This document shows positions 12,820-32,449 of a DNA stretch of 57,254 nucleotides, piece after piece. The DNA is taken from positions 1 to 57,254 of the forward strand of contig JAFGYE010000106.1 of NCBI GenBank assembly GCA_016936255.1, in the 5' to 3' direction. Position 1 is the stretch's first letter, and each line of letters opens with the position of its first letter. The DNA comes from Marinifilaceae bacterium. Lineage in GTDB: Bacteria > Bacteroidota > Bacteroidia > Bacteroidales > Marinifilaceae. The notes below the pieces were generated by a model. It did no database searches, had not been told where the DNA came from, and was given only the letters and a program-made list of their open reading frames with translations. Position numbers and translations under genes: made by a program.

Positions 12820-14457
12820 ATGATTAGTGTAGATGCTTTGGCGGTAGAATTTGGAGGAACCAATTTATTTAAAGACATTTCCTTTGTGATTAATGAAAAG
12901 GATAGAATTGCTTTAATGGGAAAAAACGGGGCTGGTAAATCTACTCTTTTGAAAATTATAGCAGGAGCCGAAAGTCCTTCCCGGGGAAGAGTTTCAAGTC
13001 CTAAGGATAAGGTGATTGCTTATTTGCCTCAGCATTTAATGACTGATAATACCCGTACGGTATTCGAAGAAACAGCTCAGGCTTTTGCTTCTATTTTCGA
13101 GATGGAGAAACAGATTGAGGAAATGAATGTGGAATTGGGTACGCGAACAGATTTTGAATCGGAAAGTTATTACAAGCTAATTGAGGATGTTTCTGCTTTA
13201 AGTGAAAAATACTATTCGATAGAAGAAATAAACTACGATTCGGAAGTTGAGAAAACACTGTTTGGATTGGGGTTTGTACGGGAAGATTTCACAAGACCAA
13301 CCAGCGAATTTAGTGGTGGTTGGAGAATGAGAATCGAATTGGCAAAAATTCTTTTGCAAAATCCAGATTTGATTCTTTTGGATGAGCCGACCAATCATTT
13401 GGATATTGAATCGATACAATGGTTAGAGGATTTCCTGATTAATTCAGGAAAAGCTGTTGTTATTATTTCTCACGACAGGGCTTTTGTTGATAAAATTACA
13501 ACCCGGACGATAGAAATTACAATGGGTAGAATTTACGATTACAAAGTAAATTACTCTCAATATTTAGAGCTTCGTAAGGAGCGGAGAGTTCATCAGCAAA
13601 AAGCATTTGATGAACAGCAAAAAATGATTGCAGACAATCAGACTTTTATCGACAGGTTTAAGGGGACGTATTCCAAAACACTGGCAGTTCAGTCGAGGGT
13701 GAAAATGCTCGAAAAACTCGATATTGTTGAGGTTGATGAAGAAGATAATTCAGCACTTCGTTTAAAATTTCCGCCATCGCCTCGTTCAGGAAATTATCCT
13801 GTAATTATGGAAGATGTTGAAAAAACTTACGGGGATCATACCGTATTTTCAGGTGTGAATTTTACAATACAAAGAGGAGAGAAACTTGCTTTTGTAGGGA
13901 AAAACGGAGAAGGGAAATCGACTTTGGTAAAAGCCATTATGCAGGAAATTGAGCATGGCGGAAACTTAACGCTTGGGCACAACACGATGATTGGTTATTT
14001 TGCTCAGAATCAGGCTTCGTTGATGGATGAAAACCTGACTGTCTTTCAAACCATTGATGATATTGCCAAGGGAGATATTCGAACAAAAATTAAAGATATA
14101 TTAGGCGCTTTCATGTTTGGAGGTGATAACTCTACAAAGAAGGTGAAAGTTCTGTCTGGCGGAGAAAAAACCAGATTGGCAATGATTAAATTGTTGCTGG
14201 AACCGGTGAATTTGCTGATTCTTGATGAGCCAACCAATCATTTGGATATGAAAACCAAAGATATTTTGAAAGCAGCCTTGAAAGAATTTGACGGAACTAT
14301 AATTCTGGTTTCTCACGATCGTGATTTTCTGGATGGTTTGGCCGAGAAAGTTTACGAATTTGGAAACAAGAAGGTGAAGGAACATTTGGGTGATATTTAC
14401 TCATTCCTGAGCAAGAAAAAAATGGAAAATTTAAACGAGCTGGAACGTAAAAACTAG
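12820..14457 (+). CDS. ABC-F family ATPase (ribosome-associated type)
   Basis: 545 residues with two ABC cassettes and no membrane segments. Walker A motifs are GKNGAGKST (34-42) and GKNGEGKST (360-368); signatures are FSGGWRMRIELAK and LSGGEKTRLAM; Walker B motifs are LILLDEPTNHLD and LLILDEPTNHLD. The linker between cassettes is helical and basic (LRKERRVHQQKAFDEQQK). ABC-F proteins bind the ribosomal E site and tune translation; some give antibiotic protection. This arrangement looks like a housekeeping YbiT/Uup-like member rather than a resistance determinant, but the interdomain arm would have to be compared. It has its own promoter-like element and terminator. Confidence 0.92.
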   Translation: MISVDALAVEFGGTNLFKDISFVINEKDRIALMGKNGAGKSTLLKIIAGAESPSRGRVSSPKDKVIAYLPQHLMTDNTRTVFEETAQAFASIFEMEKQIEEMNVELGTRTDFESESYYKLIEDVSALSEKYYSIEEINYDSEVEKTLFGLGFVREDFTRPTSEFSGGWRMRIELAKILLQNPDLILLDEPTNHLDIESIQWLEDFLINSGKAVVIISHDRAFVDKITTRTIEITMGRIYDYKVNYSQYLELRKERRVHQQKAFDEQQKMIADNQTFIDRFKGTYSKTLAVQSRVKMLEKLDIVEVDEEDNSALRLKFPPSPRSGNYPVIMEDVEKTYGDHTVFSGVNFTIQRGEKLAFVGKNGEGKSTLVKAIMQEIEHGGNLTLGHNTMIGYFAQNQASLMDENLTVFQTIDDIAKGDIRTKIKDILGAFMFGGDNSTKKVKVLSGGEKTRLAMIKLLLEPVNLLILDEPTNHLDMKTKDILKAALKEFDGTIILVSHDRDFLDGLAEKVYEFGNKKVKEHLGDIYSFLSKKKMENLNELERKN

Positions 14458-17731: not shown

Positions 17732-18338
17732 TTTATCTGTATTGAATAAGAATCACTTACAGATGAAAGTGCGGTTTCACTACTCGAAAATTTAACACGG
17801 TAAATGTAAGCATCTTTTTACGAAATATTCGTTTGCATAGCCAATTCCCGAATTTCGAATTGAAAATGCTCTGCTCTATAAAATCTTCCTGGAAAAGAGC
17901 ATTGAATCTAACTGACTTTGCAGAATTTGGAGTGTTGTGCAGCAGGTTTGTGAAATCGAAAGAATTGCTTTGAGTATTTAAGCTCAGCGAATGCTTAACA
18001 GTAGATGTTATCAGTTAAATGTATGGCATTTTACAAGTGTATTTCTGTGAGTGCCGATTTCAGTACCATTTTAATGATTTGTCATGTGAAGATTGCAATT
18101 TTCGTTATCGATTGCAGCTTTTACTTGTTATTATTAAAGAAAAAAATCATTAATGTTATTGGGTGTAAACACCCATTAAACGAGGTATTGTACAACATAC
18201 AGCGAATAATACAGAAAAATTTCTCCAATGAAAAATTGTTTTTATTTTTGATGCAGAATTAAATCACATTGATTCGATTCCAATTTTAAGCAACTCTCTC
18301 GAGTAATAATTGGAGATAAAAAATTAACAAGTCAGGGT
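17732..18338. other. Intergenic region of about 600 bases with a perfect palindrome
   Basis: No credible gene; a weak open frame at 18005-18262 has no family features. A 16-base perfect palindrome, tgggtgt-aa-acaccca, is at 18160-18175, upstream of the double carboxyltransferase. TATTTTTG at 18243-18250 matches the -7 consensus but has no good -33 partner. Together they suggest a regulated promoter with a leader of about 80 bases. Confidence 0.5.
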
Positions 18339-21300
18339 ATGAAAAAAAGGAAGTTATTAGTTAGAGATCTTACATTAAGAGATGGTCAGCAATCTCTTTT
18401 TGCTACAAGAATGCCACAGGCAGAAATTGAAAAGGTATTACACCTATATAAGAAAGCCAATTTCTATGCAATGGAAGTTTGGGGTGGTGCAGTTCCTGAT
18501 TCAGTTATGCGATACCTTAATGAAGATCCATGGTATCGTTTGGAGTCGATTAAAAAAGTGATAGGCAATGTTTCCAAACTTACCGCTCTATCCCGTGGTC
18601 GTAACCTTTTTGGATATAGTCCATACCCGGAATCAGTAATTGAAGATTTCAATACTCAGGCAGTTAAGTCTGGATTGGGAATCATGCGTATTTTCGATTG
18701 TTTGAATGATATCGAAAACATGAAGTCTACTATTAAGTATGTGAAAGCAGCTGGTGGTATTGCTGATTGTGCAGTATGTTTTACTGTTGATTCTAAATTT
18801 CCTACTAAAAAAGAAGATCTTGAAAGATTAACTATAAAGAACCTTCCTGATCAAATTTTTGATCTGGACTACTTTGTAGATATGGCAAAAAAGCTTGAGG
18901 CTTTAGGTGCCGATATGATTTCATTAAAAGATATGGCTGGATTGGCTTCTCCTTCGTATGCAGGTCAAATCATCCGCCGGTTCAAAGAAGAATTAAGTAT
19001 CCCTGTGGATTTCCATTCTCACTCTACACCTGGTTACGGTTTGGCTTCTGCTCTTACTGCAATTATCAATGGCGTTGATATCATCGATACCAACATTATG
19101 AATTTTGCCGGTGGATCTGCTGCGCCAGCTTACGAATTAATCTACATTTTCTGTCAGAAATTAGGCATTGAATTGGATGGTGATGCAAAAACTGTTGTTG
19201 AGATCAACAAAATTCTGAAAGAAATTCGTTTGAATGCTTTGGCTGATGTTGATAGCTACAAGCAGTTCCCAATTGAATTTGATATTACAAAAGATAAATT
19301 GCCTGCCAACATCGATCAGTTATTCGATGATGCAATTAAGTTTGCTAATGCCGATCAGGAAGCAGAACTACTTGTTGCATGTCACGCAATTGAGGCATAT
19401 TTTAATTTCCCGGCTCCGAACCAAATGGTTAAGGATGCGGAAATTCCTGGAGGTATGTATACCAACATGCTTAACCAGCTGAAAGCTTTAGGTTTGGAAA
19501 CCCTGTTAGAGAGAGTGTTGGAAGTGGTACCGGTGGTTCGTTTGGACGCTGGCTGTCCGCCATTGGTAACCCCTTCTTCTCAAATCATTGGGGTACAGGC
19601 TGTAAATTGTGTAATTGATGAGAATTCAGGTCGTCCGTTTTATACCAACGTAAACAACCAGTTTTTTAATTTAGTAAAAGGAGAGTACGGAACAACTCCA
19701 ATTGAGATTGCTCCAGAATTCCGCAAGAAAATTACAGGAAAAGCTGAAAAATCAGCATACGATGTAGATGCTTATGTATCTCCTGAAAATCCAACATTGC
19801 CACAGTACGGAAACGTAAAATTGGCAATTGATAAAAAAGAATTCATGTTGCTTGAGTTGTTCCCATTGGTAGCTAAAGGCTATTTGGAAGGAAAACGTAA
19901 AGCAGAATTCGAAGCTCAAAGAGAGGCAAATCGTAAGAAAATTGCTGCTGAAAGGGCTGCAATCAAACGTACAGGTAAACTTAAGATTCGTGACCTTACC
20001 CTGCGTGATGGTCAGCAATCATTGTTTGCTACTCGTGTTCCTCAGGCCGAAATTGAAAAAGTTCTTCCGATGTATAAGGATGCTAACTTTTATGCTATGG
20101 AAGTATGGGGTGGTGCAATTCCTGATTCGGTAATGCGTTACCTGAACGAGGATCCATGGCACCGTTTGGAGTCAATTAAAGAAGTGATTGGTGATGTTTC
20201 CTATCTTACAGCTCTATCGCGTGGTAGAAACCTGTTCGGATATTCTCCATATCCTGAATCAGTAATCGAAGGTTTCAACAGAAATGCTGTGAAATCCGGT
20301 TTGGGTATCATGCGTATCTTCGACTGTTTGAATGATGTGAAGAACATGGAAACCACCATCAAATACATGAAAGAAGCCGGTGGTATTGCCGACTGTGCTG
20401 TTTGTTATACTGTTGATCCTAAATTTACAGGGAAACAAAGATGGAAAGCATTGCTATCCGGAAAGAGATTGCCTAAGAAGATTTTTGATGTAAATTACTT
20501 CCTGAACAAGGCAAAACAAATGGAAGCTTTGGGTGCTGATATGATTACCGTGAAAGATATGGCTGGATTGATTCCACCATCATTGTCAGGGAAGATTATC
20601 AGAAGAATGAAAAGTGAATTAAACGTGCCTATCGATTTCCATACTCACTGTACTCCGGGTTACGGTTTAGGTGCTGTTTTAATGGCAATTGTTAACGGTG
20701 TTGATATTGTAGATACCAACATTCTGAACTTTGCTGGTGGACCGGCTGCTCCGGCATTCGAAATTATTCAGATTTTTGCTGATAAGTTAGGTTTAGACAC
20801 TGGTGTGAATTTAGATGCTGTTGTTAAAATTAATGCTGAATTAAAGGGAATCCGCAGTCGGATTGCAGAATTCGATTCATACAAAATGTTCCCATTGGAA
20901 TTCGATATTACAGCTGATTATCTTCCAAAAGAGATTGATGCATTGTTCGATAAAGCGATTGAATTAGCAAAAGCAGATAAAGAAGCCGAATTGTTAGACG
21001 TTTGTAATGCTATCGATAAATTCTTCAACTTCCCGGCACCAAACGAAGAAGTGAAGGCTGCTGAGATTCCAGGAGGTATGTATACCAACATGTTGGCTCA
21101 GCTGAAAGGATTGGGATTGGAAGATTTGCTGCCAACAGTACTGTTAAAAGTACCGGAAGTACGTGTTGCTGCAGGTTGTCCTCCATTGGTTACTCCATCA
21201 TCACAAATCATTGGTGTTCAGGCAGTAAATTATGTGTTGGATGTGAACAGCGGCAAAGCTCCTTATACAAACGTAAACAACCAATTCTTTAACCTTGTGA

Positions 21301-21779
21301 AAGGTGAATATGGCGAAACTCCAATCAATATCGATCCGGAATACCGTCAGAAGATTTGCGGACAGCGAGATGCTACAGCTTTCGATGTAAGCAAATACAA
21401 ATCACCTGAGAATCCAATATTGGAAGAGTTTGGTGGCGTTAAGCTTGCTGAGAATGAGAAAGAAATGTTGTTGTTGGAATTGTTCCCAACTGTTGCAGGT
21501 CCTTTCCTGAAGAATCGCAAAGCGGATGCTTACTACGCAAAAGTAGAAGCTGAAGAGAATGAAAAACAAAGAATCATCGACGAGCAAAAAGCTGCTTACA
21601 AGGCAATTCCTGCTGAGGAAAAGCGAGCAATGCTTTTGAGAGGATTATATAGCTTGGGTGGAACTTCAGAGGAGGCGACTGGTGAGATTACTCAACCAGA
21701 AGAAAAAGAGTCTCGTTTAGATCTTAAAACCAAAGAAATGCTTAGCAGGATGAAACCTAAAAGCAAATTAGTAGGATAA
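18339..21779 (+). CDS. Tandem double carboxyltransferase (oxaloacetate decarboxylase alpha/5S type)
   Basis: 1146 residues made of two complete carboxyltransferase units. Active-site landmarks recur exactly 542 residues apart: LRDGQQS (D15, D557), the Lys that is carbamylated in this family within LKDMAGL or VKDMAGL (K197, K739), and the metal-binding HSH/HTH of DFHSHSTPGYG and DFHTHCTPGYG (H226/H228, H768/H770). CPPLVTPSSQIIGVQ is also in both. Over the first 150 aligned residues I count 22 differences (about 85% identity). Family members such as the 5S subunit of transcarboxylase, OadA and pyruvate carboxylase B move CO2 between pyruvate and biotin and normally contain one such unit (about 500-600 residues). 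A charged helical linker (about 505-542) joins the units. No biotin-attachment AMKM motif is present, so a separate biotinyl protein is required. Flanked by a palindrome upstream and a terminator downstream. Confidence 0.9.
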   Translation: MKKRKLLVRDLTLRDGQQSLFATRMPQAEIEKVLHLYKKANFYAMEVWGGAVPDSVMRYLNEDPWYRLESIKKVIGNVSKLTALSRGRNLFGYSPYPESVIEDFNTQAVKSGLGIMRIFDCLNDIENMKSTIKYVKAAGGIADCAVCFTVDSKFPTKKEDLERLTIKNLPDQIFDLDYFVDMAKKLEALGADMISLKDMAGLASPSYAGQIIRRFKEELSIPVDFHSHSTPGYGLASALTAIINGVDIIDTNIMNFAGGSAAPAYELIYIFCQKLGIELDGDAKTVVEINKILKEIRLNALADVDSYKQFPIEFDITKDKLPANIDQLFDDAIKFANADQEAELLVACHAIEAYFNFPAPNQMVKDAEIPGGMYTNMLNQLKALGLETLLERVLEVVPVVRLDAGCPPLVTPSSQIIGVQAVNCVIDENSGRPFYTNVNNQFFNLVKGEYGTTPIEIAPEFRKKITGKAEKSAYDVDAYVSPENPTLPQYGNVKLAIDKKEFMLLELFPLVAKGYLEGKRKAEFEAQREANRKKIAAERAAIKRTGKLKIRDLTLRDGQQSLFATRVPQAEIEKVLPMYKDANFYAMEVWGGAIPDSVMRYLNEDPWHRLESIKEVIGDVSYLTALSRGRNLFGYSPYPESVIEGFNRNAVKSGLGIMRIFDCLNDVKNMETTIKYMKEAGGIADCAVCYTVDPKFTGKQRWKALLSGKRLPKKIFDVNYFLNKAKQMEALGADMITVKDMAGLIPPSLSGKIIRRMKSELNVPIDFHTHCTPGYGLGAVLMAIVNGVDIVDTNILNFAGGPAAPAFEIIQIFADKLGLDTGVNLDAVVKINAELKGIRSRIAEFDSYKMFPLEFDITADYLPKEIDALFDKAIELAKADKEAELLDVCNAIDKFFNFPAPNEEVKAAEIPGGMYTNMLAQLKGLGLEDLLPTVLLKVPEVRVAAGCPPLVTPSSQIIGVQAVNYVLDVNSGKAPYTNVNNQFFNLVKGEYGETPINIDPEYRQKICGQRDATAFDVSKYKSPENPILEEFGGVKLAENEKEMLLLELFPTVAGPFLKNRKADAYYAKVEAEENEKQRIIDEQKAAYKAIPAEEKRAMLLRGLYSLGGTSEEATGEITQPEEKESRLDLKTKEMLSRMKPKSKLVG

Positions 21780-31045: not shown

Positions 31046-32449
31046 ATGACATTGCATAAATACATCCGCACAATCGGTAGGTGTTTGTTGTCGCTTGCCT
31101 TCATTTGTTTTAGTGTTTTACCAGTTAAAAGTCAGAAACAATTGCCTGATAAAAATGGAGAGTTGATTTTGATTGATTCATTGGAAATTACTCAGGCAAC
31201 CCAAGAAAATCAGATACCAATTGGTTTATTCGCATATAATAAATGGGTTGATCTGAATGAAAACGGGCTTGTTGAAAGTAATGAGTTTTTTGGGTTAGGG
31301 AAGGTGTTATTTTCGAAAGGTGAAGCCATTAGTGTCTCTTTAAATGATCAAGATCTGAGCGAAGGTTCAAACCTGAAACTTAGAATTTGGGATACCAGTG
31401 GTAATTTGATTCGTACAATTAAAAAAACTTACACTTCAACTTCCTTATTTACTTATTCTGGTTTCGATTCATTTTTGCCCGTTGGGAATTATATTTTTAC
31501 CATTAATCCGGAGGAAACGGGAACGACCTACCAAATTCGTTTTTCTTTAAAAGAGCCAAATGGAAATACTTACGCCCAAATTCGCAAAAAACTACTTCCT
31601 GAAAACCTGCATATTTTTAGGATGTGGATAGATGAGGATGGAGATATGAAATTGGATAGCTCAGAAGTGTTTGCATTGAATCAGAAAGAATACTTTTTAG
31701 GCGATGTAAATTTTGAGTTGGGTTTAAATCTTTCTTCAAGTACCAGGCAAGTTGTTTATCAGGTTTGGGATGCTCAGCATCAGTTGCTCAGCATGAATAT
31801 TTCTAAATTGGACAGCTTGCAGCATTATACAATGAATGAGGATACTCTTCGTAAGGGAAACGATTTTTTAAAGGTCTTTCATGTTGCTCCGGCAGGTGAT
31901 TATTTAATAACAGCTTCGGTTGCAGGAGAGAAGGTGAAACAATATCAGATTCCGATTCAGATAATAGATACAACTAAGATTGCTGATTCAGAACCAACAG
32001 TAGAGGTCGAACAACTTACAAAAGAAGATACCGTATCTTCAGTACCGAAAATAAAAATGGGAACCTCTGAGAATGTGGATAATTTAGCCCCTGAATTCAA
32101 AAAAGGGCAGGAGGGATTTTTTCTGTTTACAGGATTTATTGATTTGAATGAGAACAATGTTCAGGATAGAGAAGAGTTTATGGGAGCTGATCAGGATTAT
32201 TATTATTCTGAATCGGAAAATGTATTTGTCCAATTCCATTTGAGACAATTTTTTAATACGACATTAAAATTACAATTGTTAGATGGTGAGAAGCAGTTGG
32301 TAAAAGAACAAATCGGCAAATACAGTGATTCTCCATTCGTATTTAAAGTTTCAATGCCCGATGATCCATTGATTCCAGGAGATTATCAATTACTGATGAT
32401 TCCCGTTGGTTCGGAAATAAAATATCAATTGGAACTGACAATTAAATAG
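31046..32449 (+). CDS. Secreted three-repeat protein with EF-hand-like loops
   Basis: 467 residues with a signal peptide (about 1-30, ending VKSQ). Three repeats of a beta-rich domain each begin with an aromatic strand, a 12-residue acidic loop and a Glu/Phe strand. The loops are 69-80 (DLNENGLVESNE), 196-207 (DEDGDMKLDSSE) and 366-377 (DLNENNVQDREE). All have the EF-hand pattern with acidic or Asn ligands at 1, 3 and 5 and Glu at 12; the first also has Gly at 6. A Thr/Glu/Val-rich linker (about 308-350) precedes repeat 3. I do not recognise a named family. It lacks a lipobox and a T9SS sorting domain, so it is periplasmic or released. It converges on the T9SS amylase across a shared terminator. 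Confidence 0.8.
   Translation: MTLHKYIRTIGRCLLSLAFICFSVLPVKSQKQLPDKNGELILIDSLEITQATQENQIPIGLFAYNKWVDLNENGLVESNEFFGLGKVLFSKGEAISVSLNDQDLSEGSNLKLRIWDTSGNLIRTIKKTYTSTSLFTYSGFDSFLPVGNYIFTINPEETGTTYQIRFSLKEPNGNTYAQIRKKLLPENLHIFRMWIDEDGDMKLDSSEVFALNQKEYFLGDVNFELGLNLSSSTRQVVYQVWDAQHQLLSMNISKLDSLQHYTMNEDTLRKGNDFLKVFHVAPAGDYLITASVAGEKVKQYQIPIQIIDTTKIADSEPTVEVEQLTKEDTVSSVPKIKMGTSENVDNLAPEFKKGQEGFFLFTGFIDLNENNVQDREEFMGADQDYYYSESENVFVQFHLRQFFNTTLKLQLLDGEKQLVKEQIGKYSDSPFVFKVSMPDDPLIPGDYQLLMIPVGSEIKYQLELTIK

Follow-up and report, generated by a model that had tools for sequence, protein, structure and literature searches.

A tandem carboxyltransferase gene of Marinifilaceae and its candidate transcarboxylase partners

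The tandem gene and its two units

The window analyzed here, a stretch of 57,254 nucleotides on contig JAFGYE010000106.1 of a Marinifilaceae bacterium (GCA_016936255.1), carries on its forward strand a gene in which two carboxyltransferase (CT) units are joined head to tail. Its features are as follows.

18339..21779, + strand: tandem CT gene, 1146 aa, whose sole match in its own genome at E<=0.001 is itself
18339..19862, + strand: unit 1, residues 1-508, a TIM-barrel CT plus helical domain with R14, D15, Q18, R117, K197, H226, H228 and T411
19863..19976, + strand: linker, residues 509-546, modelled as a single long helix (509-540), without the tail motif of short single CTs
19977..21602, + strand: unit 2, residues 547-1088, a second CT with R556, D557, Q560, R659, K739, H768, H770 and T952
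21606..21650, + strand: C-terminal tail motif, residues 1090-1104, common to single CTs without a biotin domain

The frame runs from an ATG at 18339 to a stop that ends at 21779, with no internal stop. In BLASTP its halves share 361 of 526 aligned columns (69% identity, 82% positives), with a single gap position, bearing out an earlier sequence-only reading of two full CT units in one 1146-residue protein. Catalytic pairs recur exactly 542 residues apart (D15/D557, K197/K739, H226/H768, H228/H770, R14/R556, Q18/Q560 and R117/R659), and residues 5-154 are identical to unit 2 at that offset at 128 of 150 positions (85%). Both regularities had been noticed before, the former for the first four pairs. 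The accompanying statement that there is no net insertion has to be corrected, as unit 2 is one residue shorter at a single gap near residue 297, and T411 pairs with T952 at an offset of 541.

In CTs of the pyruvate type, catalytic roles belong to an Arg/Asp/Gln set, a further Arg, a Lys, an HxH motif and a Thr. All eight of these positions are invariant in both halves of all 26 distinct tandem proteins; in the window's protein they align with those of the solved structures 5ks8 and 2nx9 in both halves, and with those of 1rqb in the second half. Pfam finds HMGL-like and PYC_OADA in the tandem CT, two stretches of each, and no biotin domain; the biotin motif [AVCSE]MK[MLV] is absent from the whole protein. 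Both units thus look catalytically intact and neither has a biotin motif, as had been proposed. The tandem protein has the HMGL-like barrel with PYC_OADA, the fold match and the catalytic residues of a pyruvate/oxaloacetate-type biotin CT, and the doubled enzyme itself is well supported.

An AlphaFold2 model built from 30 sequences (mean pLDDT 83.5, pTM 0.67) contains two complete CT folds linked by helix 509-540. The 5S subunit of the known transcarboxylase is a dimer, as are related CTs, so a fused CT pair would fit. Together with the model, this makes the earlier suggestion of a covalent dimer plausible.

Upstream of the tandem gene lies an 85-aa open reading frame (18005-18262) without a Pfam or NCBIfam match at E<=0.001. 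The genes nearby encode a CvfB-like protein, a C69 peptidase, an ABC exporter and a two-component system, none with an evident link to the tandem CT. When 44 stretches, some showing the same place twice, were set side by side, no neighbor was common to all CT groups; neighbors were shared by close relatives only, and gene neighborhood was set aside as a guide to function. Elsewhere in the window, positions 12820-14457 encode an ABC-F ATPase that scores above the NCBIfam cut-off of a ribosomal protection-like ABC-F model, and positions 31046-32449 hold a 467-aa open reading frame without a Pfam match at E<=1e-8. Among the part of the open reading frames scanned, those at 32521-57127 include starch-type utilization genes (SusC/SusD, two GH13, GH31, GH65, LacI and MFS).

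Single relatives and candidate partners

Among 84 distinct single CT units, 38 have a biotin motif near the C-terminus and 46 have none. An initial rough sort had given 39 biotin-fused and 45 other units, one of them, L103, being misplaced among the former although it lacks the motif. By that sort, and with a loosened pattern, the C-terminal tail motif occurs in 42/45 units sorted as biotin-free, 25/26 tandem C-halves, 0/26 tandem N-halves and 2/39 of the remaining units; a stricter pattern gives 27/45, 21/26, 0/26 and 0/39. The two carriers among the 39 are L103, truly biotin-free, and a second unit that looks like a chance match. In all five single-CT genomes of the family that were checked, one open frame encodes both the CT and a Pfam biotin domain. 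As a separate observation, six single CTs of Rikenellaceae and their kin (L168, L171, L173, L174, L175 and L179) have two C-terminal biotin motifs, 87-89 residues apart.

The window's genome holds five PF01039 carboxyl-transferase genes. One of these, P0003 on contig C96, is an acyl-CoA CT of the type that we label 12S-like; it is followed by a free 102-aa biotin protein (P0004), and the pair is unlinked to the tandem gene. By score, P0003 is closer to propionyl-CoA carboxylase beta (1vrg, 691 bits) than to 12S (1on3, 596 bits). Its identity is about 51-56% with the remaining full-length MmdA/PccB-type CTs compared, 32% with a 535-aa one on C58, and 74-84% with its relatives among the matches listed in the order census. 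No biotin carboxylase match was found on C96. The best NCBIfam match of the 102-aa protein is the PycB biotin domain, at a score below that model's whole-protein cut-off, and its best PDB matches are the biotin domains of pyruvate carboxylases.

The 12S-like gene is present in 52 of the 56 genomes of the family, whatever their CT type and including genomes without a CT match, as well as in 22/22 tandem genomes of the family and 2/2 tandem genomes of the order census. A small biotin-motif protein follows it in 30/30 loci read; for all further genomes the counts refer to the 12S-like gene itself. Across Bacteroidales it occurs in 246/393 genomes, being found in 70/99 CT-positive versus 176/294 CT-negative genomes (p 0.056, kinship not controlled). 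The association is sharper for short single CTs, defined as open frames under 612 aa: 51/55 of their genomes have the 12S-like gene versus 176/294 CT-negative ones (Fisher p 4e-7), in a split by CT length that was chosen after seeing the data and with kinship uncontrolled. These length classes are rough. The short class includes possibly cut frames (G289 and G306 at contig ends; G160 and G342 in a family that also has long ones), without which a hand count gives 48/51, and the long class includes some CTs without a biotin motif (L101, L108). Genomes with long CTs have the 12S-like gene in 17/42 cases, more rarely than CT-negative genomes do (p 0.02).

A biotin carboxylase domain was not found in 43 of the 80 CT-positive Bacteroidales genomes examined (80 of 99). 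It was not found in 22/55 short-CT genomes; 18 of these 22 have the 12S-like gene, of which 13 are at least 90% complete and one, G342, may have a cut CT frame. Therefore, the CT of these 22 genomes cannot be half of a pyruvate carboxylase. Since nothing found there loads biotin with ATP, the CT should trade carboxyl groups with a decarboxylase or a second CT. The natural candidate partner would be the 12S-like protein together with its biotin protein, giving the composition of a transcarboxylase.

The reading that we favor, tentatively and at somewhat less than even confidence, is that the tandem protein is a covalent CT dimer serving as the pyruvate/oxaloacetate subunit of a dispersed transcarboxylase, together with the 12S-like protein and the 102-aa biotin protein. 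We infer the dimer geometry, the activity of both sites, the partner, the substrate and the direction. Each half would be a working CT barrel for carboxyl transfer between carboxybiotin and pyruvate/oxaloacetate; once fused, the usual CT dimer would be covalent and have one C-terminal tail per pair. Biotin would be supplied on a separate small carrier, most likely the 102-aa protein beside the 12S-like CT. The 12S-like protein may load this biotin from methylmalonyl-CoA, and either tandem half may unload it onto pyruvate, yielding propionyl-CoA and oxaloacetate without ATP. A transcarboxylase shuttle had been suggested before, and it gains indirect support here, with the second substrate assigned to a separate 12S-like protein with its free biotin protein rather than to one of the halves. 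A transcarboxylase is disfavored by the weakness of the association overall, by the lack of linkage between the genes, and by the AccC and MmdA systems of the genome itself.

Published work gives some metabolic background. According to an excerpt of PMC5760507, Labilibaculum ferments glucose to formate, acetate and succinate, along with some propionate that probably arises via the methylmalonyl-CoA pathway, and an excerpt of PMC9765461 reports deep-sea expression of mmdAC and pccB by Marinifilaceae. For the gut genomes surveyed in PMC9403272, the excerpted text places transcarboxylase in two actinobacterial genera only and states that none of the genomes combined two of the three methylmalonyl-CoA-to-propionyl-CoA enzymes; the window's genome would have two.

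The tandem CT may instead belong to an oxaloacetate decarboxylase, passing the carboxyl of oxaloacetate on to a free biotin carrier that the Na+-pump beta subunit OadB would decarboxylate; we regard this as unlikely. OadA is about as close a homologue of the tandem as are 5S and PycB, and the same genome has, besides the 12S-like pair, an operon for a methylmalonyl-CoA decarboxylase of the Na+-pump type, in which OAD_beta and OAD_gamma are accompanied by an MmdA-type CT and a biotin protein of 140 aa. However, this operon has its own CT, which is not of the tandem's kind, the fused biotin domain of OadA is missing from the tandem, and the short single homologues go with the 12S-like gene (51/55).

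There is a similarly small chance of a split pyruvate carboxylase, in which an AccC-type biotin carboxylase would load a free biotin protein and the tandem would carboxylate pyruvate. The best NCBIfam score of the tandem is indeed to PycB, and no other pyruvate-type CT was found in its genome in a search at E<=0.001. Of the three biotin carboxylase domains in this genome, one is in a 668-aa frame and two are AccC-type proteins, on C28 and C113, but both AccC-type genes adjoin their own CT and biotin protein. Single homologues, moreover, occur in genomes without a biotin carboxylase domain (43/80), which tells less against this reading in the tandem genomes, as they do have AccC.

Divergence, distribution and origin of the halves

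Both halves are under similarly strong purifying selection (dN/dS 0.02-0.08 in each, from six genes in 15 pairs, with the C-half undefined in 2 pairs). They are fixed (>=25/26) for different residues in 21/538 columns. Two of these differences, A203/I745 and S227/T769, adjoin the active site. Position 203 is A in 26/26 N-halves and I in 26/26 C-halves, and is I or V in 84/84 singles. Within the HxH motif, position 227 is S in 25/26 N-halves and T in 26/26 C-halves and 84/84 singles; the motif accordingly reads HSH in unit 1 of 25/26 tandems and HTH in unit 2 of 26/26 and in all the singles. These changes, and the tail motif kept by the second half only, would suit halves that are specialized, one acting on pyruvate and its counterpart on another keto acid or with another biotin protein. 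Different donors and acceptors for each half, raised in the sequence-only reading, thereby find some slight support, with a few of the 21 differences near the active site. Against this stand the identity of all eight catalytic residues, the similar dN/dS of the halves, and the four/four split between N- and C-half of the eight fixed differences in which the 84 singles clearly side with one half. We consider specialization improbable.

In Marinifilaceae, the window's family, 22/56 genomes have the full tandem, 25/56 a single unit and 9/56 no match (E<=1e-100). The tandem genomes are spread over six genus codes, which include Labilibaculum, Marinifilum and Ancylomarina, and none of the six also shows the close single form. 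Within the window's genus the tandem occurs in 8/9 genomes, the ninth being 63% complete. Eight tandem genomes of other genera have a second, canonical-looking CT (36-38% identity); the window's genome has none. Three one-contig assemblies carry the full tandem: G004, G013 and G071, the last assigned to the window's species, with 100% identity. Assembly error near the junction or a recent duplication is therefore given practically no weight, the tandem being full-length in 22/56 family genomes, three of them on single contigs, and its halves being 69% identical and each clustering across genera.

Outside the family the tandem is rare. A scan of named genomes, resting on the best 80 of 195 related stretches, kept 75 loci, 55 single and 20 tandem; 19 of the tandem loci are from Marinifilaceae and one (L126) is from Prolixibacteraceae bacterium JC049. 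In the order census of Bacteroidales, 99/393 genomes have a CT match at E<=1e-150; 97 of these 99 are single, with or without a fused biotin domain, and the tandem is found in two, the window's own genome and G192 of another family (G192:C42:103963-107271). The window's own is the only tandem among the 6/395 matching genomes of the class census (E<=1e-150) and the 5/395 of the phylum census (E<=1e-100). Shared ancestry, transfer or a second fusion may lie behind the tandems of JC049 and G192. We also note a record titled Neomarinimicrobiota (L152) with a single CT of the same family, which may reflect transfer or mis-binning. The fused form, whose novelty was said beforehand to fall if it proved common and documented, is thus usual in six genus-level groups of one family, but a search of the literature, in excerpts rather than full texts, found no description of a tandem CT.

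Trees took in 10/26 distinct tandems, 5/39 singles of the biotin-fused type and 44/45 of the other type; L108 was kept out for its long branch, and the cut-off duplicate loci L053, L054, L055, L060 and L067 were excluded from the set. In a tree of 69 units, the N-halves of Marinifilaceae, JC049 and G192 are sister to the C-halves of Marinifilaceae and JC049 (support 100/98), and the G192 C-half is placed among singles with moderate support. That placement suggested a separate second fusion in G192, which was set aside because topology tests allow all tandem halves to form a single clade (p 0.57) and likewise allow one for the tandem C-halves (p 0.19), so that the trees are compatible with one origin or with two. 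The best explanation of the tandem CT is an old in-frame tandem duplication of the biotin-domain-free single CT of other Bacteroidales.

A wider proposal is that Bacteroidales possess an unrecognized, genetically dispersed and ATP-free transcarboxylase, made of a 12S-like CT, a small free biotin protein and a pyruvate-type CT, and that marine Marinifilaceae have joined both CT subunits of its dimer in a single asymmetric chain, with divergence beginning at the first active site. Taken as a whole this is doubtful. The analysis of partners suggests an ATP-free route, open to testing, that would connect methylmalonyl-CoA with oxaloacetate in those Bacteroidales that form propionate. As a natural covalent CT pair, the tandem would also allow the active sites of the usual dimer to be mutated singly, a direct test of cooperation in CT dimers.

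Comparison with known carboxyltransferases

The form is unusual, as the sequence-only reading held, in having two units where OadA, PycB and 5S each have one. Transcarboxylase 5S of Propionibacterium shermanii (1rqb/1rqh) is the best Foldseek match of the tandem model, with a TM of 0.81-0.83 by target over about one unit; PycB and OadA are close behind, again about one unit at a time. The fold is shared with 5S and the catalytic residues are the same where aligned, and 5S, like the tandem, has no biotin domain. In contrast to the two units of the tandem, 5S is a single one, at 28% identity, and the tandem scores 564.6 bits against the 5S equivalog PRK12330, below its cut-off of 827. Residues 150-176 and 297-362, common to all the CT groups studied here, meet gaps or stretches that do not align in 5S, and the same holds for PycB and OadA.

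Pyruvate carboxylase subunit B of Methylobacillus flagellatus (5ks8) gives the best sequence score among solved structures, and PycB is the top NCBIfam model (767 bits versus a cut-off of 402, with two copies summed). PycB has a single unit, ends in a biotin domain and works with a biotin carboxylase; the tandem lacks that C-terminal domain. The CT fold and residues of oxaloacetate decarboxylase alpha from Vibrio cholerae (OadA, 2nx9) are also those of the tandem. OadA is one unit, the full protein having a biotin domain and the partners OadB and OadG, whereas the tandem has no biotin domain and scores 679 bits against TIGR01108, below the cut-off of 756.5.

A transcarboxylase fusion in Giardia reportedly joins unlike domains, in contrast to the two copies of one CT that are fused in the tandem. 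That domain fusion and fission can both occur in a biotin enzyme is indicated for the Giardia protein by the title of Jordan 2003, as cited in PMC3199775.
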